From NCBI RefSeq assembly GCF_003003055.1, contig NZ_PVTV01000011.1, positions 620,001 through 684,000 of the forward strand: DNA of 64,000 bases. Direction: 5' to 3'. Of this stretch, positions 46,042 through 63,379 are shown one piece after another. Both the position numbers and the translations under genes were made by a program. Positions within the stretch are counted from its first letter, which is position 1; the number at the start of each line of letters is the position of its first letter. Source of the DNA: Jezberella montanilacus. Lineage in GTDB: Bacteria > Pseudomonadota > Gammaproteobacteria > Burkholderiales > Burkholderiaceae_B. Under the pieces are notes generated by a model. That model did not search any database and was not told the DNA's origin. It worked only from the letters and a program-made list of their open reading frames with translations.

Positions 46042-46443
46042 ATGAACTCAACACTTTTGACCCATCCTCACCTGGCAGACTGCCGAAGACTTTTTCTGCG
46101 CAATTTCGAGATCATGATGAATATCGGGGTGTACGAATCCGAAAAAAACGGACCACAACGCGTGTTAGTTAACGTAGACCTTTATGTGCCGCTCAGCGAC
46201 AACACGCCCACAGAAGACAAACTTCTCGAAGTGGTCGACTACAACCTGATGCGAAACACAATTCAAGCAATCGCTGCGACTGGCCACATTCATTTGCTCG
46301 AGACCTTATGCGATCGGGTTGCCGATAAGATCATGCAACACAGACTAATCCGAGCGATTGGCGTGTCAGCTGAAAAACCAGATGTGTATGCCGACAGTGA
46401 AGGGGTCGGGGTAGAGATTTTTCGTGTCAGATCAACAGCGTAG
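46042..46443 (+). CDS. folB: Dihydroneopterin aldolase
   Basis: 133 residues. FLRNFEIMMNIGVYESEKNGPQRVLVNVDL, DYNLMRNTIQAI and HLLETLCDRVADKI are FolB hallmarks. It cleaves dihydroneopterin to 6-hydroxymethyl-dihydropterin in folate synthesis. The C-terminus overlaps the end of dgkA on the opposite strand by 17 bases. Confidence 0.92.
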   Translation: MNSTLLTHPHLADCRRLFLRNFEIMMNIGVYESEKNGPQRVLVNVDLYVPLSDNTPTEDKLLEVVDYNLMRNTIQAIAATGHIHLLETLCDRVADKIMQHRLIRAIGVSAEKPDVYADSEGVGVEIFRVRSTA

Positions 46444-46867
46444 TGACCACTGGGGTCAGGATGGTGGCCCAGATGACCAAAGCGAGCAACAACGCCAAGA
46501 AGACAGCCGCTGAGCCAAAATCCTTCGCACGCTTAGACAGATCGTGCTGCTCAAATGAGATGCGATCGATAGCAGCCTCAACGCTTGAATTCAACAGCTC
46601 AACAACCAGTACCAGTAACAAGGTCGCAAACATCAAGGCCCGGTCAAGCCCGGTCACGGGAGCCCAAATTGCGATCGGCGACAGCACCAGAGCCAAGGTC
46701 AATTCTTGCCTGAACGCACTCTCTTCATTAAACGCAAACACTAGACCGCGCCAGGAATTTTTAGCAGCATGCCAGGCACGCGCCAAGCCACGATTACCTT
46801 TGTGTGGATTCTGATTGATGTTATACGGTGGCGGCGAGGGTGGTAATGAAGGCGGTATGGATGGCAT
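46427..46867 (-). CDS. dgkA: Diacylglycerol kinase
   Basis: About 146 residues from the ATG at 46867. Three-helix membrane kinase with NEESAFRQE, VVELLNSSVEAAIDRISFE and HDLSKRAKDFGSAAVFLALL. It phosphorylates diacylglycerol to phosphatidic acid. N-terminal Pro-rich 20 residues are unusual. It follows the GT4 gene by 10 bases, in the same direction as plcP-GT4. PlcP would release diacylglycerol; DgkA could return surplus to phosphatidate when phosphate is back. A longer upstream opening overlaps GT4 and is rejected. Confidence 0.9.
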   Translation of the reverse strand: MPSIPPSLPPSPPPYNINQNPHKGNRGLARAWHAAKNSWRGLVFAFNEESAFRQELTLALVLSPIAIWAPVTGLDRALMFATLLLVLVVELLNSSVEAAIDRISFEQHDLSKRAKDFGSAAVFLALLLALVIWATILTPVVTTLLI

Positions 46868-46877
46868 CAAGTCACCA

Positions 46878-47933
46878 TCAGTCTGTCGCCAGCATTGGAT
46901 TGGATTCAACAGGCGCGGGACGCAGGTAGTATTCGAATTGCTCAGTCGCAGCCCGCCATGAGAAGGTCTCAGCGTGCGCACGTGCGATCGCCCGGTCAAT
47001 ATGCAAAGCTTGCAAACAGGCTTCACGCAAATCGTCATGCATCACACCCGCACCAGAGTCGCCCAACACGTCGATGGGGCCAGTGACAGGGTAAGCGGCA
47101 ACTGGCAAGCCACAGGCCATGGCCTCAAGCAAGACCAAACCGAACGTATCTGTCTTACTTGGAAACACAAAAACATCTGCGGCGGCGTAGATCTTAGCCA
47201 GTTCGTATTTGTTCAGTTCACCAAAATACATGGCATCAGGATATTTCTTTTTCATATCCGACAGGCCAGGACCACCACCAACCACCCATTTGGTCCCTGG
47301 TAAATCCAACCTCAGAAATGCATCAATATTTTTTTCAACCGCTACCCGGCCGACATAAAGAAAGACAGGATATGGCGAACTATCGGGGATCAGTGAGGGT
47401 GCTTCAGATTCGTCTTCATTGGTCGGGAGCTTGAACACATCAAGGTCAACACCGCGTGACCACAAAACCGTATTGTCGATACCGTATTTCTCAAGATCTT
47501 GCTTAACGACCGAGGTTGGTGCCATGACCGCCATCGCAGGGCCGTGAAACCAGCGCAGAAACCGGTAAGTCCAGTGCAACGGGATATTGATTCGAGCTTT
47601 GACGTACTCAGGAAATCGTGTGTGGTAGGCGGTCGAGAAAGGTAATTTGTTTCTCACGGCATAATTACGCGCTGCAATCCCTAAAGGACCTTCAGTCGCG
47701 ATGTGCATGGCATCGGGTGCAAACGCTTTGAGCCGTTTGGCCAACTTAAGCCGAGGATAGACAGCCAGCGAAATCGTTGGGTAGGTCGGACAGGGGACAG
47801 TAAAGAATTCGTTCGGCGTGATCATGTCGACTTCGTGACCCATCGCGATGAGCTCGGTCAAAGTCTGCTTTAAGGTTCTGACCACACCGTTGACTTGAGG
47901 CTCCCAGGCGTCCGTGATGATTGATATTCGCAT
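46878..47933 (-). CDS. GT4 glycosyltransferase, probable diacylglycerol glycosyltransferase (Agt-like)
   Basis: About 351 residues from the ATG at 47933. GT-B fold: N-terminal MRISIITDAWEPQVNGVVRTLKQT, middle HIATEGPLGIAARNYA, FLYVGRVAVEKNIDAFL, and the donor-binding EX7E stretch KTDTFGLVLLEAMACGLPVAAYPV. Genes of this type beside plcP (named agt in alpha- and marine proteobacteria) make mono- or glucuronosyl-diacylglycerol under phosphate limitation. Here it directly follows plcP (overlap of plcP end is 4 bases upstream of the longer start) and precedes dgkA. The sugar donor is not knowable from sequence. A paralogue lies at 49789. Confidence 0.82.
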   Translation of the reverse strand: MRISIITDAWEPQVNGVVRTLKQTLTELIAMGHEVDMITPNEFFTVPCPTYPTISLAVYPRLKLAKRLKAFAPDAMHIATEGPLGIAARNYAVRNKLPFSTAYHTRFPEYVKARINIPLHWTYRFLRWFHGPAMAVMAPTSVVKQDLEKYGIDNTVLWSRGVDLDVFKLPTNEDESEAPSLIPDSSPYPVFLYVGRVAVEKNIDAFLRLDLPGTKWVVGGGPGLSDMKKKYPDAMYFGELNKYELAKIYAAADVFVFPSKTDTFGLVLLEAMACGLPVAAYPVTGPIDVLGDSGAGVMHDDLREACLQALHIDRAIARAHAETFSWRAATEQFEYYLRPAPVESNPMLATD

Positions 47934-47950
47934 GCTCTCGTTCTCTCGCC

Positions 47951-48820
47951 TCAAGATACTGAACTGGTCTGCTGACTGAACGAATCGAGCAGCGCGGGTT
48001 CAAGCTCTGGCACGACCTCAACAGGGCGCGCGGGCGCGCGCTTACCTGTTACCCCTTCAGGTACTTCATCGTGAACCGGGTCGCCGTGTATATGCGTCCA
48101 ATGGACTATTTTTAGCTCACCCTCATGGGTTTCGACAAGTGCGGTCAAGCTCTCAACCCAATCGCCATCATTGCAATAAAGCAAACCATCGATTTCTCTG
48201 ATCTCTGCGTTATGAATATGCCCGCAAACCACGCCATCGCAATGACGCATCCGTGCTTCACGTGCCATGATGTGCTCAAAATCAGTGATGAAACTGACAG
48301 CATTTTTAACTTGATGTTTTAGGTATTGTGAGAGCGACCAGTACTGAAACCCCAGGCGCACTCGAATCCGGTTGAAGTAGCGGTTCAAGAACAGGATAAA
48401 CGTATAAAGGCTGTCGCCAACATACGCAAGCCATTTAGCGTATTGCATGACACTGTCAAACAAATCGCCGTGAGTCACCCAGAGTTTTCTGCCATCAACG
48501 GTGGTGTGTATCCACTCTTCGACAACCTTCACCTCGCCAAAGGACATGCCGAAGAATTGACGAACACTCTCGTCATGGTTGCCAGGAATATAAATGACCT
48601 CTGTACCTTTGCGTGCCTTACGCAAAAGCTTTTGCACCACATCATTATGGCTTTGAGGCCAGTAGAAGTTTTTCTGTAGCCGCCATCCATCAATGATGTC
48701 GCCTACAAGATAAAAAGTATCGGCCTCATTGTGCTTCAAGAAATCGAGGAGGTAGTTGGCCTGACAACCTGGTGTGCCCAAGTGTATGTCTGAAATCCAG
48801 ATGGCGCGATAGTGATTCAT
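47951..48820 (-). CDS. plcP: PlcP-like metallophosphoesterase (phospholipase C type), LpxH superfamily
   Basis: 289 residues. Metal motifs are SDIHLG (Asp11, His13), GDIIDGW (Asp41), GNHDE (Asn81, His82), THGDLFD (His117) and GHIHNAE (His201, His203). The protein is often labelled UDP-2,3-diacylglucosamine diphosphatase, but a true lpxH is at 12688. Length, YFNRIRVRLGFQYWSLSQYLKHQVK and the neighbouring GT4 and dgkA fit PlcP, which strips head groups off phospholipids to give diacylglycerol when phosphate is scarce. A tandem Pho-box-like element lies directly upstream (48829-48884). No ribosome site precedes the ATG. The plcP call rests on context as well as sequence. Confidence 0.78.
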   Translation of the reverse strand: MNHYRAIWISDIHLGTPGCQANYLLDFLKHNEADTFYLVGDIIDGWRLQKNFYWPQSHNDVVQKLLRKARKGTEVIYIPGNHDESVRQFFGMSFGEVKVVEEWIHTTVDGRKLWVTHGDLFDSVMQYAKWLAYVGDSLYTFILFLNRYFNRIRVRLGFQYWSLSQYLKHQVKNAVSFITDFEHIMAREARMRHCDGVVCGHIHNAEIREIDGLLYCNDGDWVESLTALVETHEGELKIVHWTHIHGDPVHDEVPEGVTGKRAPARPVEVVPELEPALLDSFSQQTSSVS

Positions 48821-48828
48821 GAGTCGAT

Positions 48829-48884
48829 ATTACACCAGCTTATCGTGACAGCTAGATGGCAAAATCATTTCATTTTAATGACAT
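48829..48884 (-). promoter_or_regulatory. Tandem Pho-box-like element and -10 of plcP
   Basis: On the minus strand, TTGCCATCTAGCTGTCAC (48845-48862) matches 12 of 16 defined positions of the Pho box CTGTCATANANCTGTCAT. A second box ATGTCATTAAAATGAAAT (48867-48884, 11 of 16) starts 22 bases further upstream, exactly two 11-base repeats. Ten bases downstream of the first box is TGTAAT (48829-48834, 5 of 6 to TATAAT). Transcription would then start within about four bases of the ATG at 48820. Counts are by hand. Confidence 0.6.
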
Positions 48885-48895: not shown

Positions 48896-49744
48896 TCAAT
48901 CAAAGCGATACGTCACGCCGGCTTGAAACCGACTGGTATTAGCTTCATTCGCTGAGAACATCGTACCGAAGTTTGTGGCATTTCGCTGATAGGCGATCCC
49001 AAGATCCACCTCTTTTGTTGGCGAATAAATCAAGGCGAGCATGGCATACGTTGTCAGAGAGGGGTCGGGCTCATTGGGATTGGTGTTGACACCAACATCC
49101 AAGGCCAATTTAAACCTCGGGGCAAACTGCCAAACAGGCGCAACAGATACTGCATACAAATTCGTACGCTTGGCATCAGCGCTGAAACCAACCTGATAAT
49201 TGGGATCATACGGCGCCCTGAAATAACTGACATTGGCATGCACCTCAAGCGACTGCAGATAATAAGAAAAAATTGAAGTCAAGCCCGCGTTGATCGCGGA
49301 GTTTCCCAGACCATATATTTGCTGATCAACTGCCGCTGGCAATATCAGCATGGGTTTCAACGCAGCACTAACGCCGTGCTCGCCATCGCCCGCATAACGC
49401 CATTTCATTGCAAAGGTGTAGTTCCCGATAGGCGAGAAGCCACCTGAGGGCGTAGCGTAAAAAGTTGGGCTAAACGACGCGTCGAACGTATCGGTCAAAC
49501 CCCGCGCATACGCCAAGGGAAATCCCCGTGCGAGACCTGTTCCTTCGTAGTTTTCGCCAGTGCTGAAGCCATCCTCGGGGGTTACGGCTGGGCTGTATTC
49601 GCTGATTAAAAAGAAATACTGTTCAAGCTGATTACTGCCTTTAGCCACCGTGGCGGCATCATCAGTATTTAGAGGGGCATACGCGAATGCGCTGAAATTG
49701 ATTAAAAAAAAGACAAAAATGACAACAAACCGACAACCGAGCAT
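48896..49744 (-). CDS. Outer-membrane beta-barrel protein (transporter-like, MetA-pathway type)
   Basis: About 282 residues from the ATG at 49744, which is preceded by AAGGA with six bases between. Signal peptide MLGCRFVVIFVFFLINFSAF, then a mature start YAPLNTDDAATVAKGSNQLEQYFFL. Alternating hydrophobic/aromatic strands continue to a C-terminal TRFQAGVTYRFD, a typical barrel end. Similar proteins fall in PF13557 (putative MetA-pathway transporter). It lies inside the phosphate island between two GT4 genes, downstream of the second one by 45 bases, and could be its porin or a phosphorus-compound channel (inference). Confidence 0.75.
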   Translation of the reverse strand: MLGCRFVVIFVFFLINFSAFAYAPLNTDDAATVAKGSNQLEQYFFLISEYSPAVTPEDGFSTGENYEGTGLARGFPLAYARGLTDTFDASFSPTFYATPSGGFSPIGNYTFAMKWRYAGDGEHGVSAALKPMLILPAAVDQQIYGLGNSAINAGLTSIFSYYLQSLEVHANVSYFRAPYDPNYQVGFSADAKRTNLYAVSVAPVWQFAPRFKLALDVGVNTNPNEPDPSLTTYAMLALIYSPTKEVDLGIAYQRNATNFGTMFSANEANTSRFQAGVTYRFD

Positions 49745-49788
49745 CCAAACATCCTTCATCACTAACTTTAAAGGATTTATTTTAATAA

Positions 49789-50793
49789 TCAGTGCGCGTG
49801 AATTGGCTTGATTGCAGATAAAAACTGCTGAGTTGCAGCTGCCCAGGTGTATTTTTTCCCGAACTCTGCGACAGACTCACGATTGACTTTCAAGGCCTCC
49901 AGACAAGCTGTACGCAAATCATGATTCATGACTCCGCCTTGTGAATCGCCAAGCACGTCAATCGGCCCGGTGACCGGCAGGGCAGCAACAGGCGTCCCGC
50001 AAGCCATGGACTCGATCATCACCAGACCAAACGTATCTGTTTTGCTGGGAAACACCATCACATCAGCGCTGCGATAGAGTGTTGCTAAATCCGCACCCGA
50101 TAAAACGCCAAACCAACGAGCATCGGGGAACTTCTTTCTCAATACCTCAGCGCTCGGCCCCTCACCAGCGACCCATTTTTCGCCCGGTAAATCCAGCGAT
50201 AAAAAATCCTCGACGCTTTTCTCAACTGCGAGTCTACCCACGTAGAGAAACACGGGTTTGTCAGTGCGCGGCAGCTTCTCGCCAGTCGGCTCAAAGATCT
50301 CGCTGTCCACGCCCCTGCTCCAGATAACTGGTTTGGTGAAGCCTCTTGTCTTTAGGGTCGACAGCATTGCAGGGGTAGGGACAAGCGTTGCCACACCCGC
50401 ATTATGAAAGCGCTTGAGTAATGAATAACTCAGACCGACAGGCAAACCAATTCGCATCTGTACATACTCTGGAAACCGGCTGTGATAGCCGGTGCTAAAG
50501 CTCCAACCACGATCGATTGCGACACCGCGGATGGCCCAACCGAGAGGGCCTTCCGTTGCAATATGGACCACGTCGGGCGCAAATGCATCAATCACTTTTT
50601 TAACTGATCCACTTGTGACCAAGGGCAAGCGAATTTCAGGATACGTCGGGCACGGAATACTGCGAAACATAGAAGGATTAACAACGAGGACTTCGTGCCC
50701 CAGCCGTGTCAACTCTCTGGAAGTCATCTTCAAGGTACGAACAACACCGTTAACCTGAGGATCCCAGGCTTCTGTTGCAATCAATATTTTCAT
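49789..50793 (-). CDS. GT4 glycosyltransferase, second Agt-like paralogue
   Basis: 334 residues. MKILIATEAWDPQVNGVVRT, HIATEGPLGWAIRGVA, HSRFPEYVQMRIG, VFLYVGRLAVEKSVEDFL and KTDTFGLVMIESMACGTPVAALPV match the first paralogue at 46878 segment by segment. It starts three bases after PPK2 ends. Two paralogues in one island may add two successive sugars, or use different donors. The activity is unproven. Confidence 0.82.
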   Translation of the reverse strand: MKILIATEAWDPQVNGVVRTLKMTSRELTRLGHEVLVVNPSMFRSIPCPTYPEIRLPLVTSGSVKKVIDAFAPDVVHIATEGPLGWAIRGVAIDRGWSFSTGYHSRFPEYVQMRIGLPVGLSYSLLKRFHNAGVATLVPTPAMLSTLKTRGFTKPVIWSRGVDSEIFEPTGEKLPRTDKPVFLYVGRLAVEKSVEDFLSLDLPGEKWVAGEGPSAEVLRKKFPDARWFGVLSGADLATLYRSADVMVFPSKTDTFGLVMIESMACGTPVAALPVTGPIDVLGDSQGGVMNHDLRTACLEALKVNRESVAEFGKKYTWAAATQQFLSAIKPIHAH

Positions 50794-50796: not shown

Positions 50797-51753
50797 TCAA
50801 TACACCGAAGGGACGTACATGTCTTGCGGAACTGGATGTCTTGTGTAGTCCGGGCTATGGACGCGCTCTGGCAAAACAACGGGGGCGTGCTCAACCTCTT
50901 CGTAGGGCACTTGTTGCAGCAAGTGATGGATACAATTCAACCGAGCCCGCTTTTTGTCATCCCCATCGACAATCCACCATTTGGCTTCAGGGATATGTGT
51001 TCTCGCCAGCATGACCTCTTTGGCCTGGGTGTAGTCCTCCCAGCGACGGCGAGACTCCAAGTCCATGGGACTGAGCTTCCACTGTTTTAATCTGTCGCGT
51101 ATGCGCATACTAAAACGCATATGTTGCTCGTCGTCACTGATCGAGAACCAGTATTTAATCAGAACAATGCCAGAGCTCACCAGCATCTTTTCGAAGTCAG
51201 GCACGGTCCTGAAAAATTCTTCATATTCTTCGTCGTTACAAAAACCCATCACGCGCTCAACACCTGCCCGGTTGTACCAGCTTCTGTCAAACAAGACGAT
51301 CTCACCGCCTGCTGGCAAATGCGGGACATAGCGCTGAAAATACCACTGAGTCTTTTCACGCTCGTTGGGCGCAGGCAAGGCGACAACCCGACAGACGCGC
51401 GGGTTCAAGCGCTGCGTGATCCGTTTGATTGAGCCGCCCTTGCCTGCTGCGTCACGACCTTCGAAGAGCACAACTACTTTCAGCTTTTTTGCAACAACCC
51501 AATCTTGCAACTTGACCAACTCGCCTTGCAGGCGAAGCAACTCACGGAAGTAAATGCGTCGTTCCACACTTCGACTGTCTACCTCCCCATCTTGGGGAGA
51601 ATCCATTAACAACTCATCGAGCATGTCGTCATCGATTTCCATTTCAAGCTCTTCATCGTAACTGTCGATAAGATCAGCACGGGCGCGCTCGGCGAATGTC
51701 TTAGCTGAGGCAGAGGGATCGTTCTGTGTATTCGATTTGCTTTTTGTCGTCAT
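50797..51753 (-). CDS. ppk2: Polyphosphate kinase 2
   Basis: 318 residues. PPK2 domain with Walker A VLFEGRDAAGKGGSIKRITQ (about residues 95-114), PRVCRVVALPAPNEREKTQWYFQRYV, and FDRSWYNRAGVERVMGF (lid). N-terminal acidic extension of about 60 residues. PPK2 class I enzymes use polyphosphate to phosphorylate nucleoside diphosphates. It is in the same direction as the alkaline phosphatase gene and is coupled closely to the second GT4 gene. Confidence 0.93.
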   Translation of the reverse strand: MTTKSKSNTQNDPSASAKTFAERARADLIDSYDEELEMEIDDDMLDELLMDSPQDGEVDSRSVERRIYFRELLRLQGELVKLQDWVVAKKLKVVVLFEGRDAAGKGGSIKRITQRLNPRVCRVVALPAPNEREKTQWYFQRYVPHLPAGGEIVLFDRSWYNRAGVERVMGFCNDEEYEEFFRTVPDFEKMLVSSGIVLIKYWFSISDDEQHMRFSMRIRDRLKQWKLSPMDLESRRRWEDYTQAKEVMLARTHIPEAKWWIVDGDDKKRARLNCIHHLLQQVPYEEVEHAPVVLPERVHSPDYTRHPVPQDMYVPSVY

Positions 51754-51814: not shown

Positions 51815-52171
51815 TCAGTAGTCGTCCTCATCATCAGGCGACACGGAGCGGCTGTAGTCAATTTCAATAAACTGTGTTTTGGACAAACCGCTGACCAATA
51901 CACGACTAGCGAAGCTACGTCCGTCGGGCAATTGAATATCCAGCACGTATGCCCCTTTGCTGAGACCTGATACTTTAAAGAAGCCGGCTGAATCCGTCGC
52001 GACGCGTGGACCGTTGACAGAGCCGACTCGAAAATTAACCAAGGCACCTGAGAACACCTGAGTATCCGAGACATCGACTACTCGGCCCACGACATCCGTC
52101 GCACCGGCCGAACTCACGGCGACGACCATCAGGACGCCTGCAAGGATCCGAGCAAACCGCGACCCAAGCAT
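51815..52171 (-). CDS. Exported small beta-sandwich (carboxypeptidase-regulatory-like) protein
   Basis: About 118 residues from the ATG at 52171. AGGAGG lies 9 bases upstream, which decides this start over an upstream in-frame one at 52195. A signal peptide (LGSRFARILAGVLMVVAVSS) leads to one domain of the CarboxypepD_reg type: VVGRVVDVSDTQVFSGALVNF, PRVATDSAGFFKVSGLSKGAYVLDI. The tail is acidic (DDEDDY). It starts 18 bases after the alkaline phosphatase stop and probably is cotranscribed. It may be a substrate- or surface-binding partner for the phosphatase (inference). Confidence 0.75.
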   Translation of the reverse strand: MLGSRFARILAGVLMVVAVSSAGATDVVGRVVDVSDTQVFSGALVNFRVGSVNGPRVATDSAGFFKVSGLSKGAYVLDIQLPDGRSFASRVLVSGLSKTQFIEIDYSRSVSPDDEDDY

Positions 52172-52188
52172 CGCAACACCCCTCCTGG

Positions 52189-54495
52189 TTACCATCCTTT
52201 CAAATTACCCGCTGGGGACATGTCACTCTGAGCCTTTCCACCCAGCGCGCGAGCAAGACGAACCACGATAGACGTGTTGTCGTAATAACCTGCAAAATGG
52301 TGCGCTCCAGCGCCCTCAGCTGAGACCAGCACATCGTCACCTGCGTGTGGGGCGATATCGACGACGCCACCAGTCTTATTAGCCCCACCCTTCACATTCT
52401 GAGTGGGCATATTGCCTGTCATCAACAGCCCTTCCGGCTGTCGGGCTGAATCTGGCAGAGCCGCCTGATCGATCTTTTTACCATCAGCTGTTTTTCTCGA
52501 ACTATTCGGTTTGAGCGGTTGATAATTAGTCAAGAAAGTCGTGCTGTAGGTTGGACGTCCACCGTCTTCAATAATCAGTTTGATTGCTGGATCTGGATCG
52601 TCAGGAAAACCATCGCGATTAAGGTCTGCATAAGTCGGAAACGTCGCATCATTGAAGGTACCGATGGCATCTTGCAAGGCACAGGGCCGGTCAGGATCGG
52701 CGGCAGAACCAAGGGTCACCGGATAGTTGCCATTGGTCGTCTGGAAGCATTTGCCAGCAGCTTCAATCAGCGAGCCCGTCATCGCCACACCGATAATCGT
52801 TTGTGGTTGTGCGTGATCGGAAGTTGCCACGGTCAAAGCATGCTTGTCGTCAGAGAACCTGGCCACGGTGTTTTGCACACTGCGATCGAGCTCAATCACT
52901 TCATAAATTGCACGGTCATACTCAAGAATATGTCCCATTTTGTCAGACTGTGACTGCTCAACAAGTAGCATCCAGCCGCCGTCGCCACGTGGATTTTGTT
53001 GCTTGGCAAGCCCTTCAAGCACACTAATCGCTTTGTCGATCATGTCTTGCTTCATTGGCACTTTGCTAAAACAAGACGCGATCGTTGCACCACACGCGGT
53101 GCCGTAAGGCGGTGCAACATTCATCCCGATCTCTGGGTCACCCGAGTGCTTACCGCGAATCGTTGCTTTATTTCTCGCAACCAGACGATCCAGGACACCT
53201 GGGATATTGTCTGGCCCCAAGCCCGTCGACGTTTTACGGAATTCCCCGGTGAATACGCCAATAAGCTTTTTGTTGTTGGGGGCGTTACGGAGTTCGTCGA
53301 CATTATGCACAACGCTATAGCCCATTGCAGGCGCAACATTAGCGAGTAAGTCAACGTCTTTACGGCCAGCACCTTCGGGGTATTGATAAAAGCCCTGCAA
53401 CAAGGGATTGTTTTGCTTCATCCAGTGAACAGCACCTCCGCCCATCAAAACATCAAGGGGCTGAGATAATTCGGCCAAGGCAACGTTGCCCGTTTTCTTT
53501 AACTCACTCGCATCGTCGTAGTAGCCAATCATCTGCTGCGCAATGTTCAGATAGTTTCTGCGCGCACGATTATGAGCCTGAGCAGAGGCAGGGGTTGCAT
53601 CCACCAGAAAAGCATCGGTCACGACGCCGATCTTCCAGCCATGAACGCGCTTCATGTACTCAAAAATTGTTTCAATCCGCGGATTATCAAGCGCATCTTC
53701 TGGCGTGTTATCGATTGACACCTGAATGGCATTGTTAGATTGTTTGACCCCACTGATGATGCTGGCCATGCCTGGCGCAGAGTCAGTAATAATGCTGTCA
53801 AACGACGTCGTACGACTCATCCCCTGCACTGTCATCTGCTCAAGCGCCAAAGGCTCTGCGCGGCCTTCAACAATCGGCTTGCTAATCAGGCGAGCTGCTG
53901 TTCTCATCGGGACGCCCATGCCGTCGCCAAGAAAAAAGACCAGCTTATTCGTTGCACCGGCTGCGCGAGGATTGGGGGCTGCCGCAACTTCGTAAACGTT
54001 GCGCACAGACCTGGCTGTCCCATCGACGTTCACAACAGCCTCGACCAAGTAATGCCCGGGAGCGTCGAAGCTCATATTTCTGGCAGTCTCACCAAATAAC
54101 AACTCAGACTTCGGCGTGCCTGATTCAGAGCCTTTGCCTTGCTTCTGTATTTTCTGCGTAAACTGCGCGGAGACCTCTTTGCCGTTAATTTTTAGGCTGA
54201 CTAATTTAGGAGCCACCTGAGCGGGGATCTGTGTCTCAACACGCAAGTCAAAACGTTGGCCAGCGAACAAATCACTGCGCGTGGGGGGCATCATACGCAA
54301 GCCAGATTCGGACTCTGCGTTCATCGGGAAATCAGCTAATTTCTGATTAAAGTAGATTGGATCGGCCGCGTTTCTGGTTTTACCGTCGCCTGCAAACGGG
54401 GAATCATCGTCTTGACCTGCGATTGAAACCGTTGTCGTCAATGCGACGAGCAAGCATGCGAGAGCACGACCACCAAATCTGCTGTCTATCATCAT
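52189..54495 (-). CDS. Alkaline phosphatase with N-terminal Ig-like extension
   Basis: 768 residues, much longer than E. coli PhoA (471). A signal peptide (about 1-27) is followed by about 150 residues rich in beta strands (LFAGQRFDLRVETQIPAQVAPKLVSLKIN) and then the alkaline phosphatase domain: metal-binding GDGMG (Asp191), nucleophile Ser239 in TDSAPGMASIISG, EQSQSDKMGHI, TSDHAQPQT and GAHHFAG near the C-terminus, which supply the other zinc ligands. It should release phosphate from organic esters in the periplasm or outside. It lies directly downstream of a Pho-box-like element. PhoA, PhoX and PhoD classes differ; this one belongs to PF00245, so I leave the symbol open. Confidence 0.88.
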   Translation of the reverse strand: MMIDSRFGGRALACLLVALTTTVSIAGQDDDSPFAGDGKTRNAADPIYFNQKLADFPMNAESESGLRMMPPTRSDLFAGQRFDLRVETQIPAQVAPKLVSLKINGKEVSAQFTQKIQKQGKGSESGTPKSELLFGETARNMSFDAPGHYLVEAVVNVDGTARSVRNVYEVAAAPNPRAAGATNKLVFFLGDGMGVPMRTAARLISKPIVEGRAEPLALEQMTVQGMSRTTSFDSIITDSAPGMASIISGVKQSNNAIQVSIDNTPEDALDNPRIETIFEYMKRVHGWKIGVVTDAFLVDATPASAQAHNRARRNYLNIAQQMIGYYDDASELKKTGNVALAELSQPLDVLMGGGAVHWMKQNNPLLQGFYQYPEGAGRKDVDLLANVAPAMGYSVVHNVDELRNAPNNKKLIGVFTGEFRKTSTGLGPDNIPGVLDRLVARNKATIRGKHSGDPEIGMNVAPPYGTACGATIASCFSKVPMKQDMIDKAISVLEGLAKQQNPRGDGGWMLLVEQSQSDKMGHILEYDRAIYEVIELDRSVQNTVARFSDDKHALTVATSDHAQPQTIIGVAMTGSLIEAAGKCFQTTNGNYPVTLGSAADPDRPCALQDAIGTFNDATFPTYADLNRDGFPDDPDPAIKLIIEDGGRPTYSTTFLTNYQPLKPNSSRKTADGKKIDQAALPDSARQPEGLLMTGNMPTQNVKGGANKTGGVVDIAPHAGDDVLVSAEGAGAHHFAGYYDNTSIVVRLARALGGKAQSDMSPAGNLKGW

Positions 54496-55612: not shown

Positions 55613-55650
55613 CATGTATCCTAAAGATCGCAGCTTTAGCAGCCAGTCAA

Positions 55651-56544: not shown

Positions 56545-57479
56545 GATTTCGCTCCTTCGGACTTCGCCATCCGCTGCAACATCAGCTTGGACGCAATGAG
56601 AACAACGGTCGTAATGAAGAAAAGGATCAGTCCAAGCTCAAGCAAGGCAGACTTCTGTAAGCCAGCCGCTTCATTAAACTGATTTGCCAAAGCTGACGCG
56701 ATGGAAGTACTCGCAGAGAAAACCGACGTTGGCATACGGAAAGCATTACCGATGACAAAGGTAACAGCCATGGTCTCACCAAGCGCTCGTCCCAGCCCCA
56801 ACATCACTCCTCCAATCACACCAGCTCTCGTGAAAGGCAGGACAACTTTGGACATAACTTCCCAGGTCGTGCCACCCAAGCCGTAAGCAGACTCTTTAAG
56901 CATTGGGGGTACTAATTCGAACACATCACGCATGACAGATGCGATAAAAGGAATGATCATGATGGACAGGATCAAACCAGCAGTAAAGATGCCACTGCCG
57001 AAAGGTGGGCCCGCAAACAGAAAACCGATACCTGGTATGGGGCTTAGCCAATCGATCAAACTGGGTTGAACATAGCGTTGAAAAAAGGGCACAAAAACAA
57101 ACAAGCCCCACATACCGTAAATAATCGACGGGATTGCAGCCAGCATCTCGACCGCCGTGCCAATCGGCCGACGTAACCAAGACGGGGCAAGCTCAGTCAA
57201 GAACACGGCGATCCCGAAAGAAACTGGGATAGCAATTAAAAGGGCAATGATTGAGGTTAACAAGGTACCAACAACCGGCACCAGCGCACCATAGATATCC
57301 TTGTTTGGGTTCCAGTCACTACGCCAGAAAAAGGGGATACCGTCGCGCAGCAAGGTCTCCTGACTGCCGATAACCAGCGAAACGAGGATTGCCGCTAGTA
57401 GGCTGAAGACGACAAAGGCAAAGAGTCGAGTCGTTTGCAAAAACAGGACATCATGCAAGGTACTTTGATTTTTTTTCAT
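56541..57479 (-). CDS. pstC: Phosphate ABC transporter permease PstC
   Basis: 312 residues. Six membrane helices; [67 protein letters not shown] and [21 protein letters not shown] are PstC hallmarks. It begins about 124 bases after pstS, from which it is separated by a hairpin. Confidence 0.96.
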
Positions 57480-57603: not shown

Positions 57604-58644
57604 TTACAGCAATGGCTTGCCGTCAGCAGCTTTGAGAGTTGCCTTCCAGTCAGCTTTGATCTTGTCTGTCACTTCTTTTGGCAGGGGAACATACTCAAGG
57701 TCAGCAGCCAGCTTGCTGCCGCTATCAAAGGCCCAAGTGAAGAAATCGATCACAGCTTTGCCGTTCGCTGGCTTTTCTTGGGTCTTATAAACCAAGATAA
57801 ACGTAGCACTGGTAACAGGCCATGAAGCATCGCCAGGCTGGTTGGTCAGCACAACACCCATACCAGGTGCGCTATCCCACTTTGCATTGGCAGCTGCGGC
57901 AGCGAAAGTTTTCTGATCAGGCTGGACAGCTTTACCAGCGCTGTTGATCAGTTGAGTCCAGGCCAGGGCGTTGCCCTTAGCATAGGCATATTCAACGTAG
58001 CCGATCGAATTTTGCAGCTGACGGACATAGTTGGCGACGCCATCATTACCCTTGCCACCCTGACCAACTGGCCACTGAACCGATTTACCTTCGCCCACTG
58101 CAGACTTCCACTCTGGCGACACTTTGCTCAGGTAGTTGGTCCAACCAGCTGTGGTGCCCGAACCGTCTGAGCGATAAACCACAACGATGTCAGCCGCTGG
58201 CAACTTGACGTCAGCATTCAAAGCTTGAATTGCTGGGTCGTTCCATTTTTTGATTGTGCCCTGGAACACATCTGCCAGAACTTTGCCTGACAACTTCAAT
58301 TGACCAGGCTTAACACCATCAATATTCACCACAGGTACAGTACCGCCAATCACGGCTGGGAACTGCATCAGAGCCAGTTTGTCCAGTTGCTCACCTGGCA
58401 TTGGATCATCGGTCGCACCGAAATCAACTGTCTTAGCAGTGATCTGCTGAATCCCGCCACCTGAACCAATGGCTTGGTAGTTGACTTGGTTGCTTGTCTT
58501 AGCTTTGTACTCAGCAGCCCATTTCGCGTAAACAGGTGCGGGGAAAGTGGCACCGGCGCCGGTGATATCAACAGCAAAAGCCGTGAAAGCGGCAGAACTC
58601 AGGGCTACCGTAGCAGCGAGACGCACAAAGGCGGTCTTGATCAT
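57604..58644 (-). CDS. pstS: Phosphate-binding protein PstS
   Basis: About 346 residues from the ATG at 58644 with GAGG upstream; the reading frame extends 26 codons further but into the promoter. Signal peptide (MIKTAFVRLAATVALSSAAF, cut after AFA). Phosphate-binding loops GAGATFPAPVYAKWA, YQAIGSGGGIQQITAKTVDFGATDDPM and SDGSGTTAGWTNYLS are complete. It captures phosphate in the periplasm for PstCAB. A Pho-box-like element lies upstream. Confidence 0.96.
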   Translation of the reverse strand: MIKTAFVRLAATVALSSAAFTAFAVDITGAGATFPAPVYAKWAAEYKAKTSNQVNYQAIGSGGGIQQITAKTVDFGATDDPMPGEQLDKLALMQFPAVIGGTVPVVNIDGVKPGQLKLSGKVLADVFQGTIKKWNDPAIQALNADVKLPAADIVVVYRSDGSGTTAGWTNYLSKVSPEWKSAVGEGKSVQWPVGQGGKGNDGVANYVRQLQNSIGYVEYAYAKGNALAWTQLINSAGKAVQPDQKTFAAAAANAKWDSAPGMGVVLTNQPGDASWPVTSATFILVYKTQEKPANGKAVIDFFTWAFDSGSKLAADLEYVPLPKEVTDKIKADWKATLKAADGKPLL

Positions 58645-58699: not shown

Positions 58700-58733
58700 A
58701 TATTAGTCAGCCTGTATGACAAGTTTGTTACAG
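58700..58733 (-). promoter_or_regulatory. Pho-box-like element and -10 of pstS
   Basis: On the minus strand CTGTAACAAACTTGTCAT (58716-58733) matches 13 of 16 defined Pho-box positions. Ten bases downstream is TAATAT (58700-58705). The predicted leader to the pstS ATG is about 49 bases. The left half also belongs to a palindrome GTTACTGTAAC (58727-58737 on the other strand). Confidence 0.65.
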
Positions 58734-58751: not shown

Positions 58752-60887
58752 TTAGTTGGCCGTTTGATTTGCCAAAATCAGCGCCTCATGAAGGCTGAAC
58801 GGGGGCTTACGATTTTTTAATTTAATGTAATCCCCATTTTTTTGCTGCAACCAGGCAAGTTGATTGTCATTGAGCGCAAAAGTGAATGCCTCTTGGATTA
58901 CCCGTTTTTTTAGTTTTTCGTCCAGAATCGGAAACGCCACTTCAACACGTCTGAAAAAGTTTCTGTCCATCCAGTCCGCAGAAGAAGCGTAAACACGCTC
59001 TTTCCCGTCTGCGTAAAAATAAAAAACCCTTGCGTGCTCGAGAAAACGTCCAATGATGGATCTGACCGAAATATTTTCAGATAAACCAGGCACACCAGCT
59101 CTCAAAGCACAGACGCCACGAACAATCAGATCTATTTGGACGCCAGCTGCACTCGCCTTGTACAACTCATCGATCACAATAGGCTCAAGAAGCGAGTTCA
59201 TTTTCGCCATGATGCGAGCCTTTTTGCCTGCCCTGGCTGCCCTTGCCTCGGCGCGAATCATGCGCACCATCGATTCATGCATGGTGAAAGGCGACTGCAA
59301 CAGCAACTTCAGCGTGCGCCGCTCGCCCAAGCCAGTCAGTTGCGAAAATACTTTATCCATATCTTCGCAGAGACGAGTGTCCGCTGTCAGCAAACCGAAG
59401 TCGGAGTACAGCGCAGCTGTCCGGGGGTGGTAATTACCGGTGCCTAAATGCCCATAGCGGCGAATGCGGCCTTTTTCGCGCCTCAGCACCAACGCCATCT
59501 TAGCGTGCGTCTTGTGACCGACCACTCCGTAAACCACATGCGCACCAACCTCTTCAAGCCTTGCTGCCCAGTTGATGTTGGTTTGTTCATCAAAGCGCGC
59601 CATAAGTTCAACGACAACGGTTACTTCTTTGCCTGCCTTCGCAGCAGCCAGTAGCAATCTCATCAGCTCTGAGTCTTCGCCGGTGCGATAGATAGTTTGT
59701 TTAATTGCAACAACCTCTGGATCGAGCGCCGCTGCCGTCAAAAAATCAATGACTGGCTGAAAGGACTGATAAGGATGATGAAGCAACTGATCGCCGGCAG
59801 CGATCGCTTCGAACAAAGCACCAGGGCGGGTCAAAGGTCGATCAAAGGGCGCAGGAATCGGCGCAACGTATTCAGGAAACAATAAATCGGGCCGATGAAC
59901 CGCCGAACAAATCTGCATCAGTCTTGAGAGATTGACAGGACCATTGACACGATAGGTGTCAGCATCAGACAGAGAAAACTCGTTTTGCAGATACTCCTCA
60001 ATATGCCGAGGCATCGTCTGATCGACCTCAAGCCGCACTGCAGACCCGAAATTACGTTGCGACAGCTCACCTTGCAACGCGTGCCGCAGATTGGTGACCT
60101 CCTCTTCATCCACAAACAGATCGCTGTTGCGTGTCACCCGCCACTGATAGCACCCTTGCATCTCCATGCCCGGAAACAATTCGCCTACAAAGGCACGCAG
60201 CAAGGAAGTCAGCAAAATATAGCCGTTCGGCTGGCCCGACACGGAAGGAGGCATTTTAATCAGGCGAGGTAAAGCGCGTGGTGCCTGCACAACGGCAATG
60301 GTCGACTTACGGCCAAAGGCGTCATGGCCCGACAAGGGCAAAATAAAATTCAGGCTTTTGTTGTAAACCCTGGGGAAAGGATGAGCAGGATCCAACCCGA
60401 TAGGCGTTAACAGCGGCATCACGTCGCGGGTAAACACCTCGTGCGCCCATTTGGTCTGAGCAGCATTCCAGTCAAACGCATGGTGAACCAAAATGCCTTC
60501 GGCTTTGAGTGCGGGCCAGACGGCATCTTCAAGCAAATCGTATTGTCGCTGCACCAACTGATGAACAGCCTGCTGCACGCGTTCAAAAGCCTGTTCAGCG
60601 CTGAAGCCGTCAGCGCCCGCTGCATTCGGGTATTGACGCAATTGTTCTTTAAGGCTAGATACCCGGATCTCGAAAAACTCGTCAAGGTTGGAACTAACGA
60701 TGCAGATGTAGCGTAATCGCTCAAGGGCAGGCGTGTCAGCTCGCTCAGCCATCGCAAGCACACGTTCATTAAACTTGATGAGAGACAACTCTCGGTTCAG
60801 CAATCTCGACTGGTTATCGGGGTCGCGTTTTGGGTCAGATTTGTTTCTGGAAGTCGTCGCACTTGTCTTATTTGTTCTGGTAACCAT
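58752..60887 (-). CDS. ppk: Polyphosphate kinase 1
   Basis: About 711 residues from the ATG at 60887; an earlier opening at 61016 adds a basic stretch not found in PPK1. LLNRELSLIKFNERVLAMAE opens the N domain. Catalytic histidines lie in GHKTHAKMALVLRRE and HARVFYFYADG, with RRYGHLGTGNYHPRTAALY between. It polymerises the ATP gamma-phosphate to polyphosphate. It is divergent from ppx and followed by pstS 107 bases on. Confidence 0.95.
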   Translation of the reverse strand: MVTRTNKTSATTSRNKSDPKRDPDNQSRLLNRELSLIKFNERVLAMAERADTPALERLRYICIVSSNLDEFFEIRVSSLKEQLRQYPNAAGADGFSAEQAFERVQQAVHQLVQRQYDLLEDAVWPALKAEGILVHHAFDWNAAQTKWAHEVFTRDVMPLLTPIGLDPAHPFPRVYNKSLNFILPLSGHDAFGRKSTIAVVQAPRALPRLIKMPPSVSGQPNGYILLTSLLRAFVGELFPGMEMQGCYQWRVTRNSDLFVDEEEVTNLRHALQGELSQRNFGSAVRLEVDQTMPRHIEEYLQNEFSLSDADTYRVNGPVNLSRLMQICSAVHRPDLLFPEYVAPIPAPFDRPLTRPGALFEAIAAGDQLLHHPYQSFQPVIDFLTAAALDPEVVAIKQTIYRTGEDSELMRLLLAAAKAGKEVTVVVELMARFDEQTNINWAARLEEVGAHVVYGVVGHKTHAKMALVLRREKGRIRRYGHLGTGNYHPRTAALYSDFGLLTADTRLCEDMDKVFSQLTGLGERRTLKLLLQSPFTMHESMVRMIRAEARAARAGKKARIMAKMNSLLEPIVIDELYKASAAGVQIDLIVRGVCALRAGVPGLSENISVRSIIGRFLEHARVFYFYADGKERVYASSADWMDRNFFRRVEVAFPILDEKLKKRVIQEAFTFALNDNQLAWLQQKNGDYIKLKNRKPPFSLHEALILANQTAN

Positions 60888-60954
60888 ATCAACTATTCTG
60901 GTGATTGTGCTTCGACTCTTTTTATACACCACTTTTAAGCGCGGCTTAATGATG

Positions 60955-60988
60955 TTGTCACATTTTGGTGGTTTAGTGAATCTATAAT
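60955..60988 (+). promoter_or_regulatory. Possible Pho-box and -10 of ppx
   Basis: TTGTCACATTTTGGTGGT (60955-60972) matches only 9 of 16 Pho-box positions, but a perfect TATAAT lies exactly ten bases downstream at 60983-60988, the same spacing as in the stronger boxes. The ppx ATG follows 27 bases after the -10. The -10 is convincing; PhoB control is uncertain. Confidence 0.4.
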
Positions 60989-61015
60989 CAGTGACTTTTA
61001 TTTTTATGGGTTGCA

Positions 61016-62503
61016 ATGGAACATCTTCTGGCGGCTGTCGACCTGGGATCGAATAGTTTCAGACTATCCATCGGTCGCGTATCGATGCAAAACGGCATCA
61101 AGCATATTTATCAAATCGATAGACTAAAAGAAACGGTCAGACTGGCAGCAGGGCTAAATGCCGCCAAAATTCTCGACGACGTATCGATCGAAAAAGCGAT
61201 TGAGGTTTTACATCGGTTTGGCGAACGCTTGAGAAGCTTCCACCCCGATCGGGTCAGAGCAGTCGCAACCAACACGTTCAGGGTAGCCAGAAATGTCCCC
61301 GATTTTCTTCCTCGTGCCGAGGCCGCGCTTGGTTTTCCCATAGAAGTCATTGCGGGCCGCGAAGAAGCTCGACTGATCTACACCGGTGTGAGCCACACCC
61401 TGCCGGCGTCGATCGATAAAAGACTGGTGATCGACATCGGTGGCGGCTCGACTGAGGTCATTATCGGTAAGGGTGACGAACCGCTGTTGATCTCTTCGCT
61501 TTATATGGGCTGTGTGAGCTACAGCCGGCAGTTTTTCCCTGACGGGGTGGTCGACGCCCACTCGATGAAAATGGCTGAAGTTGCCGCCAGGCGTGAACTC
61601 GAAGTCATCACCAAGCCTTACAGAAAAATGGGCTGGTCTGCTGCCTTCGGTTCGTCTGGCACGGCTAAGGCGCTGTTTGCCATCCTCAAAGAAGGAAACT
61701 TATCAGACACCGGCATTACCCTTGAGGGTTTAACCCGGCTACGGGACAAAATCATCAAGGCTGGGCGTGCTGTCCCGGAGGATTTGCCCGGGATGAAGAT
61801 AGAAAGAGCCGACGTATTACCTGGTGGCTTGGCCATCATGCGCGCTTTTTTTGATGAACTCCAGGTTGATCGAATGCAAACGGGCGACGGTGCCTTGCGT
61901 CTGGGCGTTTTAGTGGATCTGGCTGGTCGTGAAGAGGCGCACGACCGAAGGGATGAATCGGTCAAGGCGTTCATGCGACGCTATCAAATCGATGCGAAGC
62001 AAGCCTTACGCGTGAAAACCATCGCGCTAAATTTATTTACGGCACTTTTGCCAGAACGTACTGAGCAAGACGAGGTCCGTCACGCCTTGAGTTGGGCAGC
62101 TGACCTGCATGAGATCGGCTTATCGATTGCACAGGCGGGCTATCACAAACACAGTGCTTATATCCTGAATAATGCAGATATGCCGGGATTTTCACGTGTT
62201 GATCAATCGGCGATGGCGCTGCTAGCACTGGCTCATACCGGCAAGTTGTCTAAAGTACAAAGTTGGGTCAAACAACGTGAACAGTGGCTGGCTATTCTGT
62301 GCTTACGACTAGCTGTTCTTTTGTGCCGGCGCCGAATGGATATGCCTACCGTGCCCTTAAGTGTGAGTGTCAAAAACACGTCGATCGTTGTCAAGGTAGA
62401 CAAGAAATGGCTTGGCAACCATCCATTAACCGACTTTTCGCTGCATGGCGAAGAAGAAGAATGGTCCAAAGTTAATTTTAATTTCGAGCTGATCCCGGTA
62501 TAG
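61016..62503 (+). CDS. ppx: Exopolyphosphatase
   Basis: 495 residues. ASKHA-fold with AAVDLGSNSFRLSIGRV (phosphate 1), VIDIGGGSTEVIIG (phosphate 2), GREEARLIYTGV and the C-terminal HD-like domain (SWAADLHEIGLSIAQAGYHKHSAYI). It releases phosphate from polyphosphate and may also act on pppGpp. Divergent from ppk with 128 bases between. It is convergent with the olsB-like gene; a short perfect hairpin GAGGGC / GCCCTC at 62508-62522 lies between them. Confidence 0.94.
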   Translation: MEHLLAAVDLGSNSFRLSIGRVSMQNGIKHIYQIDRLKETVRLAAGLNAAKILDDVSIEKAIEVLHRFGERLRSFHPDRVRAVATNTFRVARNVPDFLPRAEAALGFPIEVIAGREEARLIYTGVSHTLPASIDKRLVIDIGGGSTEVIIGKGDEPLLISSLYMGCVSYSRQFFPDGVVDAHSMKMAEVAARRELEVITKPYRKMGWSAAFGSSGTAKALFAILKEGNLSDTGITLEGLTRLRDKIIKAGRAVPEDLPGMKIERADVLPGGLAIMRAFFDELQVDRMQTGDGALRLGVLVDLAGREEAHDRRDESVKAFMRRYQIDAKQALRVKTIALNLFTALLPERTEQDEVRHALSWAADLHEIGLSIAQAGYHKHSAYILNNADMPGFSRVDQSAMALLALAHTGKLSKVQSWVKQREQWLAILCLRLAVLLCRRRMDMPTVPLSVSVKNTSIVVKVDKKWLGNHPLTDFSLHGEEEEWSKVNFNFELIPV

Positions 62504-62527
62504 GCAAGAGGGCGTAGCCCTCATACC

Positions 62528-63307
62528 TTAAACGGAAAAGCCAAAATGCTTGCGGTATCTCGACCCCATCTCACTGACTGACAACAGCATCGGGAAATCC
62601 GCCGTGTTGAAATCCGGATCCCAAGCTGGTTCGCCACAAACTTTGGCGCCGAGTTTAAGGTAGCCCTTCAACAATGCGGGGACTTCTGCAGGAAGTTCAC
62701 TGTCGAGTTGTTCGACCGGATAGCGATGCAAAGGCTGGACGCGAGGCGTGCCAGCAGCTGTGACATCCTGTCGGACGTGGCGCCATACTTTAGCTGCCGT
62801 GTTGCCATCGTCACGCAGGCTCACGCTCGCGCATCCAAAAACATGCTCGTACTGGCCTTGCTTGAGAATCTCAGCCAAACCCGACCAGAGCATCATCAAG
62901 ACACCGCCGTGACGAAAGTCTTCATGGATACAGGCACGACCAAATTCAACCAATGTGTTTTTTATTGAACCCAGACCAGTCAGATCAAACTCAGACTCTG
63001 AGTAGTACCCACCGGCGCGCTTGGCTTGATGAGGTGTCAATACCCTGTAGGTGCCAACGACACGATCTGAATTAAGTTCACGCACCATCAGATGCTCGCA
63101 ATACGGATCAAAATCATCACGATCGATCCCATCGCTATTGTCACCGAGGACCGCACCGTACTCACCACTGAAGACGTCGTAGCGCAGCCGCTGAATCAGT
63201 TCTATCTCTTCATCATTCTGCGCCAAACCGACGACGAGGCCCGTTTGCTCATTGGACGATGAGGGAAGGGTAAACAGACTAGCAGCGCTTCGGACCAATT
63301 CGAGCAT
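62528..63307 (-). CDS. olsB: OlsB-like ornithine lipid N-acyltransferase (GNAT fold)
   Basis: 259 residues. RLRYDVFSGEYGAV, DDFDPYCEHLMVRE, VVGTYRVLTPHQAKRAGGYYSESEFDLTGL and LVEFGRACIHEDFRHGGVLMMLW are the run of conserved blocks of OlsB (PF13444), which moves a 3-hydroxyacyl chain from ACP to ornithine, the first step to phosphorus-free ornithine lipids. AGGAG lies nine bases before the start. A Pho-box-like element precedes it. The second enzyme, OlsA, is not in this window. Burkholderia species carry olsB near their pst/ppk/ppx genes, which fits. Confidence 0.82.
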   Translation of the reverse strand: MLELVRSAASLFTLPSSSNEQTGLVVGLAQNDEEIELIQRLRYDVFSGEYGAVLGDNSDGIDRDDFDPYCEHLMVRELNSDRVVGTYRVLTPHQAKRAGGYYSESEFDLTGLGSIKNTLVEFGRACIHEDFRHGGVLMMLWSGLAEILKQGQYEHVFGCASVSLRDDGNTAAKVWRHVRQDVTAAGTPRVQPLHRYPVEQLDSELPAEVPALLKGYLKLGAKVCGEPAWDPDFNTADFPMLLSVSEMGSRYRKHFGFSV

Positions 63308-63345
63308 GTTGCGTAACTCCTGTGTAATGGGAGTAGTGTGAAGCT

Positions 63346-63379
63346 GTCATATTTCAACAACGTTACCGTAACATGAAAG
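63346..63379 (-). promoter_or_regulatory. Pho-box-like element and -10 of olsB
   Basis: On the minus strand CTTTCATGTTACGGTAAC (63362-63379) matches 10 of 16 Pho-box positions; its first half is identical to that of the phosphatase box and its second half resembles the first half of the pstS box. Ten bases downstream is TATGAC (63346-63351). The leader to the ATG is about 32 bases with a good ribosome site. Confidence 0.5.

Follow-up and report, generated by a model that had tools for sequence, protein, structure and literature searches.

A two-part phosphate and lipid locus in Jezberella montanilacus with a Polynucleobacter-like plcP-gt4b-dgkA core, probably gained by transfer

Organization of the locus

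We analyzed a window of 64,000 nucleotides (nt) from Jezberella montanilacus contig NZ_PVTV01000011.1, to which all coordinates refer and in which genes for phosphate uptake, polyphosphate metabolism and phosphorus-free lipids lie side by side. The locus is real and non-random, and is predicted to be partly Pho-controlled. We consider it likely that it has two parts, an inherited core and an insert from phoA to dgkA that contains a Polynucleobacter-like plcP-gt4b-dgkA core, with a lipid swap driven by PhoB. Identities were scored by Pfam and NCBIfam profile scans against curated cut-offs, and the features are as follows.

46427..46867, minus strand: dgkA, diacylglycerol kinase (PF01219, 111 bits, over the curated cut-off)
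46878..47954, minus strand: gt4b, GT4 glycosyltransferase, Agt-like (PF13439/PF00534)
47951..48820, minus strand: plcP-like metallophosphoesterase, predicted phospholipase C (PF12850/PF00149)
48845..48862, minus strand: Pho box before plcP (score 14.0, p ~0.0009)
48896..49762, minus strand: omp, predicted 12-strand outer-membrane barrel without a family match (predicted structure)
49789..50793, minus strand: gt4a, second GT4 glycosyltransferase (PF13439/PF13692)
50797..51753, minus strand: ppk2, polyphosphate kinase 2 (TIGR03707, 372 bits vs cut-off 302)
51815..52195, minus strand: small CarboxypepD_reg-like protein (PF13620, 27.9 bits, under the cut-off of 32.3)
52189..54495, minus strand: phoA-type alkaline phosphatase, 768 amino acids (PF00245, 171 bits, over cut-off; PDB alkaline phosphatases matched)
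54549..54566, minus strand: weak Pho box before phoA (score 9.2, p ~0.02-0.04)
54675..54751, minus strand: tRNA-Pro(TGG), border of core block and insert (ARAGORN)
54818..55615, minus strand: pstB (TIGR00972, over cut-off)
55651..56544, minus strand: pstA (TIGR00974, over cut-off)
56541..57479, minus strand: pstC (TIGR02138, over cut-off)
57604..58644, minus strand: pstS (NF008171, over cut-off; start read from the sequence)
58716..58733, minus strand: Pho box before pstS (score 19.1, 0 equals in the 1 Mb null)
58752..61016, minus strand: ppk1, polyphosphate kinase 1 (TIGR03705, 923 bits, over cut-off; true start probably near 60860)
61016..62503, plus strand: ppx, exopolyphosphatase of the Ppx/GppA family (TIGR03706, 310.5 bits vs cut-off 307)
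62528..63307, minus strand: olsB-like ornithine N-acyltransferase (PF13444, 113 bits; NF052554, 158 bits vs cut-off 350)
63362..63390, minus strand: two overlapping Pho boxes before olsB, 11 bases apart (scores 11.4 and 9.5; better one p ~0.006)
63411..63998, minus strand: glmM, cut by the window end (TIGR01455, partial match)

Transcription on the minus strand follows the order glmM, olsB, ppk1, pstS, pstC, pstA, pstB, tRNA-Pro, phoA, small protein, ppk2, gt4a, omp, plcP, gt4b, dgkA. On the plus strand, ppx is divergent from ppk1, and folB, sdr and amidase lie past dgkA. The tRNA-Pro(TGG) gene stands between the pst genes and phoA. The phoA frame overlaps that of the small CarboxypepD_reg-like protein, a gap of 3 bases separates ppk2 from gt4a, and gt4b abuts plcP, the two sharing a 4-base overlap as listed that an ATG start at 47933 would remove. 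Because of these contacts, the stretch from phoA to dgkA reads as operon-like, with a putative inner promoter before plcP. The genes named in a preliminary description of this DNA (pstSCAB, PhoA, PPK1, PPK2, PPX, PlcP-like, two GT4, DgkA and OlsB-like) are all in place, with PlcP, GT4 and OlsB recognized at the family level only. The tRNA-Pro, the omp barrel and the small protein, which its N-terminus predicts to be secreted, had been overlooked, and dgkA most likely begins at 46867, which is in frame, and not at 47038.

A core block shared across the family

The family survey comprised stretches from 33 of the 48 other genomes of the family, scored for the presence of genes in the stretch and not for their order, which was seen in separate comparisons. 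The genes ppx, ppk1, pstS and pstB occur together in 30 of these stretches, which makes this half of the locus ordinary for the family; 24 of the 30 also carry olsB, and tRNA-Pro lies within 1 kb of pstB in 18 family stretches. Linkage was counted with one place per gene and genome and second matches dropped, so that the counts are lower bounds given broken assemblies. By this measure, 32 of the 63 genomes that carry both ppk1 and olsB have them no more than 20 kb apart, and 30 of these 32 belong to the window's family. OlsB, PstB and PPK1 of the window are nearest to own-genus sequences, and in several congeners glmM adjoins ppx while olsB is elsewhere. The olsB-ppx-ppk1-pst block is an ordinary family-wide arrangement. 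A synteny survey had been proposed with the preliminary description; here the olsB/ppk1/pst linkage recurs within the family, whereas plcP is found in none of the 33 stretches, eight of which stop within 2 kb beyond pstB and two of which lack this gene.

In the window, the stretch from phoA to dgkA occupies an interval of 8.2 kb between tRNA-Pro and folB. The same interval in the eight congeners where both of these genes were seen is without any frame of at least 90 amino acids in two (about 0.4 kb) and holds other genes in six; Pfam searches of two of the six filled intervals found radical-SAM and GGDEF genes, and dehydrogenases. One congener (G008) has, beside tRNA-Pro, omp, CorA, ppk2 and a gene resembling carboxymuconolactone decarboxylases.

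Origin of plcP-gt4b-dgkA

PlcP was searched for in 81 genomes, 49 of which matched, and another search supplied the best 80 of 590 confirmed places. Nineteen loci (L039-L056 and L119), grouped by PlcP identity, form what we call the Polynucleobacter set; it includes metagenome-assembled genomes (MAGs) titled beta proteobacterium or Burkholderiaceae, plus G078. Polynucleobacter are lake bacteria. Among the best 80 of 590 places, the window PlcP is at most 87% identical to the Polynucleobacter set; its identity to full-length own-genus matches is 67-70%.

A careful tree was built of 48 rows, taken from a quick tree of 73 rows with near-copies thinned and the window PlcP cut to 255 residues. The window joins the Polynucleobacter set and L063 at 100/99, and forms with ten rows of the set an inner clade of 11 rows (99/95). 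Forcing PlcP into its own genus costs 39.8 log units (approximately unbiased (AU) test, p=0.002). GT4b also groups with the Polynucleobacter set in the quick tree, with a Shimodaira-Hasegawa-like approximate likelihood ratio (SH-aLRT) of 92, DgkA is nearest to that set, and gt4a falls on a long branch in the quick tree. The placement of PlcP among Polynucleobacter-type sequences is what horizontal gain predicts, and the plcP operon was probably gained in this way, separately from the core block.

Pho boxes at the locus and in relatives

Pho boxes were scored with a matrix that is the average of one for E. coli sites and one for the pstS promoters of relatives (window left out), and the chance per promoter was taken from two nulls, intergenic (the stricter) and whole-window. 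The box before pstS (19.1) has no equal in 1 Mb of null. The box before plcP (14.0) has a chance of ~0.0009 (intergenic) or 0.0004 (whole-window), the better of the two boxes before olsB (11.4) 0.006 or 0.004, and the site before phoA (9.2) 0.036 or 0.018. The repeated Pho-box-like promoters noted earlier are thus borne out at pstS, plcP and olsB and weakly at phoA, but not at ppk1/ppx. The window-wide excess is only modest (4 vs ~2 expected at a score of at least 11); the case for these boxes rests on position and conservation.

Within the family, where upstream regions were scored with the E. coli matrix, scores above 9 occur in 28 of 30 regions of pstS, 7 of 14 of olsB, 30 of 31 of ppk1 and 29 of 31 of ppx (one shared region), and in 0 of 7 and 0 of 8 control regions of amidase and sdr. 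At the divergent ppk1/ppx promoter (60852-61015), almost every one of the 31 family stretches shows a Pho-like site scoring above 9, and the window a weak one. Pho control of the polyphosphate genes is unsupported in the window and likelier in relatives, judging from these scores.

A wider scan covered 19 loci of the Polynucleobacter set, 62 other named loci and 6 own-genus loci, dropping genes with fewer than 150 bases upstream or less than 0.6 of the query matched. In the Polynucleobacter set, scores of at least 9 are found upstream of ppx in 14 of 16 loci, of ppk2 in 11 of 16 and of plcP in 17 of 18, the plcP boxes lying between -42 and -64; the operon-internal genes reach this score in 2 of 18 (olsB), 1 of 19 (gt4b) and 2 of 16 (dgkA). 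Pho control of the plcP operon would fit Polynucleobacter and the window, and is unsupported by the scan in Burkholderia, Cupriavidus and Ralstonia. The regulators lie outside the window: PhoB (361 bits) and PhoR (385 bits) are over cut-off at G000:C3, and PhoU is encoded at C5 of the same genome; phoBR, phoU and the OlsA-like gene all lie elsewhere in the genome.

Predicted functions of the encoded proteins

The functions and substrates of the locus enzymes are predictions. PlcP has a calcineurin-like fold (PF00149/PF12850) with complete metal motifs (DIHLG, GDIIDGW, GNHDE, THGD and GHIH), corresponding to the motif pattern of PlcP (DxH, GDxxD, GNHD/E, H, GHxH). It is paired in the genome with a GT4 gene and a Pho box, as expected of PlcP phospholipase C, and is predicted to hydrolyze phospholipid to diacylglycerol. 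The two GT4 proteins share 53% identity. OlsB stays under the cut-off of the OlsB equivalog NF052554 and is therefore filed as OlsB-like, yet NF052554 is its best model. The NCBIfam PhoA equivalog is likewise not reached by the alkaline phosphatase (92 vs 540 bits), and full-length Ppx and GppA models stay under their cut-offs for the ppx product. An OlsA-like acyltransferase outside the window scores 160 bits to the OlsA model (cut-off 300) vs 96 bits to the PlsC-type domain (cut-off 103), and its paralogue has no OlsA-model match at 1e-10. The small CarboxypepD_reg-like protein has no homologue at 1e-12 among the loci compared.

The omp product has no family match in the Pfam and NCBIfam scans. 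An AlphaFold model from nine sequences has 12 strands, with a mean predicted local distance difference test (pLDDT) of 73, and in Foldseek porins rank among its matches, including the 12-strand NanC (template modelling scores TMt 0.70, TMq 0.52); a far relative is Phenol_MetA_deg-like. Homologues occur in 15 of 300 genomes of the order, own genome counted, and the closest one compared is that of G008 (52%). Two others (L189 and L190; 46-47%), from the genus of G078, adjoin phoR-phoB-phoU-pstBACS, with a CorA neighbor in one, and have upstream Pho scores of 11.9 and 13.3 vs 3.5 (G008) and 5.1 (L049). We read omp as a putative Pho-linked outer-membrane channel; phosphate or organophosphate as its substrate is a guess.

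Related islands in other bacteria

The physical linkage claimed in the preliminary description is real. Of the 42 genomes that have plcP and olsB, 11, across six families, hold the two genes no more than 20 kb apart, and ppk1 lies as close to olsB in about half of the genomes counted above, vs ~1% that random placement in a 3.5 Mb genome would give (arithmetic). Among 46 genomes, only that of the window and G050 have plcP within 20 kb of ppk1; in G050 the order is gt4a-plcP-ppk1-ppx-olsA with olsB nearby. The plcP-gt4-dgkA order itself is kept by 55 of 58 other named loci. In the Polynucleobacter set it is kept by 14 of the 17 loci whose stretch leaves 3.5 kb for it.

In the 19 Polynucleobacter-set stretches, which vary in length, plcP and gt4b are present in 19, OlsA-like, olsB and ppx in 18, dgkA in 16, ppk2 in 11, phoR and tRNA-Pro in 10 each, ppk1 in 8, phoB in 6, and phoU and pstB in 5. 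The Polynucleobacter isolates L039 and L048 have ppk2-olsA, plcP-gt4b-dgkA-olsB, ppx and phoR-phoB-phoU-pst in ~12 kb, without ppk1, and so show a fuller single cluster than the window does. The Burkholderiaceae-titled MAG L054 is the sole stretch with olsA, plcP-gt4b-dgkA-olsB, ppx, ppk1, phoR, phoB, phoU and pstB, and G078 has no ppk1 at the cut-off used. We further note that tRNA-Pro(TGG) lies near phosphate-lipid genes in the window and in L119, L044 and L054, there with an adjoining tRNA-Arg(TCT).

Five congeners (L120 G014, L121 G031, L123 G005, L124 G021 and L126 G022) carry a second island, phoU-phoX-olsB-psd-GT4-plcP, in which psd is phosphatidylserine decarboxylase. A phoB-like gene is present in 3 of these 5 stretches and a phosphonate-binding protein in 4, with an aminotransferase inside the island in L123. 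Scores of at least 9 occur upstream of olsB in 5 of 5, of GT4 in 6 of 6 (the sixth being L122) and of plcP in 3 of 6. Six Thiobacillus-type MAG stretches (L094, L095, L099, L110, L111 and L116) have ppk1 a short distance ahead of plcP, both on one strand, and gt4b comes next in 5 of 6; polyphosphate and lipid genes are thereby joined in a third manner. Because the same functions are joined in differing gene orders, the arrangements suggest that linkage has been selected for, and not that a single cluster was inherited.

Elsewhere in the window, a 492-amino-acid frame on the minus strand (about 37555-38505) has two PLDc_2 matches and is perhaps cardiolipin-synthase-like.

Interpretation and alternative explanations

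The preliminary description had proposed a single programme of phosphate uptake and phosphorus-free lipids. Conserved Pho boxes agree with such a programme being run by PhoB, but it is not a single unit, consisting of a family core block and a separate insert. For its polyphosphate part, the genes are indeed adjacent, and Pho control of ppk1/ppx in the window is the element that finds no support. One ancestral unit is rejected by the family-wide core block, by the empty or otherwise filled interval in congeners and by the position of PlcP among Polynucleobacter sequences.

Gene content and order, the Pho-box sequences, the phylogeny and the arrangements in relatives are observed; for enzyme activities, substrates, induction, the direction of transfer and the role of DgkA we infer the following scheme. 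Part 1, glmM-olsB-ppx/ppk1-pstSCAB-tRNA-Pro, would have been inherited within the family, and part 2, phoA-(small protein)-ppk2-gt4a-omp-plcP-gt4b-dgkA, would have been inserted between tRNA-Pro and folB, with a Polynucleobacter-like bacterium as the donor of plcP-gt4b-dgkA. When phosphate is low, the boxes at pstS, plcP, olsB and perhaps phoA would be bound by PhoB, whose gene lies elsewhere; Pst would import phosphate and PhoA would strip it off organic esters. PlcP would hydrolyze phospholipids to diacylglycerol, which GT4b and/or GT4a could convert to glycolipid and DgkA to phosphatidic acid, and we propose DgkA as a return valve of the PlcP-glycosyltransferase step. OlsB and its unlinked OlsA-like partner would form ornithine lipid, and PPK1, PPK2 and PPX may buffer the released phosphate as polyphosphate. 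When phosphate is scarce, such cells are predicted to swap phospholipids for glycolipids and ornithine lipids, and to manage polyphosphate at the same time. We offer only tentatively, as something we rather doubt, the broader idea that plcP-GT4-dgkA with its own Pho box, ppk2, phoA and a Pho-linked barrel is a ready-wired module that travels between betaproteobacteria, landing by pst-ppk-olsB near tRNA-Pro, so that storage and lipid choice would be inherited and run as a unit.

Several observations weigh against the two-part, PhoB-driven reading. PlcP reaches no NCBIfam cut-off, its best model being LpxH-type (45 vs 134 bits), a match too weak for us to accept PlcP as LpxH. The GT4 pair reaches no glycolipid-synthase cut-off (best NF053787, 85.5 and 64.9 vs 480 bits), for which reason both are named Agt-like, not Agt. 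The best Pho score of the ppk1/ppx promoter in the window, 5.7, is not convincing (chance 0.19 intergenic, 0.10 whole-window). The third control, folB, exceeds 9 upstream in 4 of 8 cases with the E. coli matrix, so that scores near 9, as at phoA, carry little weight, and only 1 of the 62 other named loci (Burkholderia, Cupriavidus, Ralstonia and others) scores at least 9 within 200 bases of plcP. The quick tree gives the same PlcP placement with AU p=0.05 only, and the group tested in the careful tree was named with the quick tree already in view. Some family stretches are too short to reveal plcP, and the window ppk2 is nearest to that of congener G008 (79%), with Polynucleobacter at 76% or less. 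GC content and GC at third codon positions (GC3) of the insert equal those of its surroundings; a recent transfer seen by base composition was rejected on this account, and the transfer, if any, would be old. Pfam scans find no integrase among the window frames, and a search for the tRNA end that tolerated up to 3 mismatches found a single copy in the window. An integrative element with a tRNA-end repeat was also rejected, there being no such repeat at the far border and none among the window's repeat families. Given the lack of both integrase and repeat, we describe the phoA-dgkA stretch as an insert in a variable interval, not as an integrative element.

Some of these points would be equally expected if plcP-gt4-dgkA were ancestral at a Burkholderiales tRNA-Pro/pst/ppk locus, kept by Polynucleobacter and the window species and lost or replaced in congeners. 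The unremarkable base composition of the insert agrees with vertical descent, as do tRNA-Pro near plcP in 10 of 19 Polynucleobacter-set stretches (anticodon TGG in all three checked) and pst, ppx and olsB nearby in both the window and the set. We nevertheless regard this history as unlikely, since the window PlcP lies inside the Polynucleobacter-type set, in the 11-row clade, and not beside it, since the olsB genes of the two islands are only 45-50% identical whereas window olsB is 74-82% identical to those of nearer congeners, and since plcP is missing from all 33 family stretches, though eight of them stop shortly after pstB. More improbable still is a coincidence of two independent transcription units that follow no common programme, with dgkA and GT4 serving envelope or lipopolysaccharide metabolism instead of phosphate stress. 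This explanation draws on the weak LpxH likeness of PlcP and on the Burkholderia, Cupriavidus and Ralstonia stretches compared, where plcP-gt4b-dgkA occurs without other phosphate genes and nearly always without a Pho box close to plcP. It is contradicted by the Pho boxes before plcP in the window and the Polynucleobacter set, by the proximity of plcP and olsB in six families, and by the congeners in which plcP and a different GT4 accompany phoX, phoU and olsB.

Comparison with known systems

The chemistry and its Pho control are already published for other bacteria. PlcP-Agt and PlcP/DagK/OlsAB are described as Pho-dependent in Pseudomonas (PMC8528852, PMC5082522), and Pho boxes are reported to precede olsB in 21 of 43 genomes of Burkholderia sensu lato (first matrix) and in Acinetobacter (PMC7814305, PMC11828411). 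Among the matches listed from open-licence literature, there is no account of the plcP-olsB-polyphosphate linkage, its recurrence or its transfer, and nothing was found there on Polynucleobacter with plcP and phosphate. What appears new relative to the literature searched is this linkage, its recurrence and its transfer. A 2026 paper (PMC13086504) states, with reference to a cyanobacterium, that low-phosphorus lipid remodelling seems weaker in freshwater than in the sea. The opposite would be expected of the cells considered here, given the compact island with Pho boxes in Polynucleobacter and its apparent transfer to a different family.

P. aeruginosa is reported to make glycolipids at low phosphate via PlcP-Agt (PA3219-PA3218, PA0842; PMC8528852), and its system resembles that of the window in having PlcP followed by GT4, a second glycosyltransferase in the genome, and Pho boxes. 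The window differs in that omp, ppk2 and phoA share an operon-like stretch with two GT4 genes, dgkA comes next and pst-ppk-olsB adjoins. In Pseudomonas putida BIRD-1, whose PlcP, DagK, OlsA and OlsB are reported as Pho-dependent (PMC5082522), olsAB, plcP and ppk/ppx are far apart by locus tags, whereas the window has them mostly clustered. Marine plcP neighborhoods likewise combine plcP, a glycosyltransferase and putative Pho boxes (PMC4796936); linkage with olsB, dgkA, ppk and pst, present in the window, is undescribed in the section of that paper on neighborhood types. The closest likeness is with the Polynucleobacter-set islands, which have plcP-gt4b-dgkA, ppk2, olsB and ppx in common with the window, in some cases ppk1 and pst as well, and likewise lie near a tRNA-Pro. 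In those islands the OlsA-like gene is linked (18 of 19), olsB closes the plcP operon, and phoR, phoB and phoU are present in some, whereas the window has olsB next to glmM and also contains omp, phoA and a second GT4 gene.

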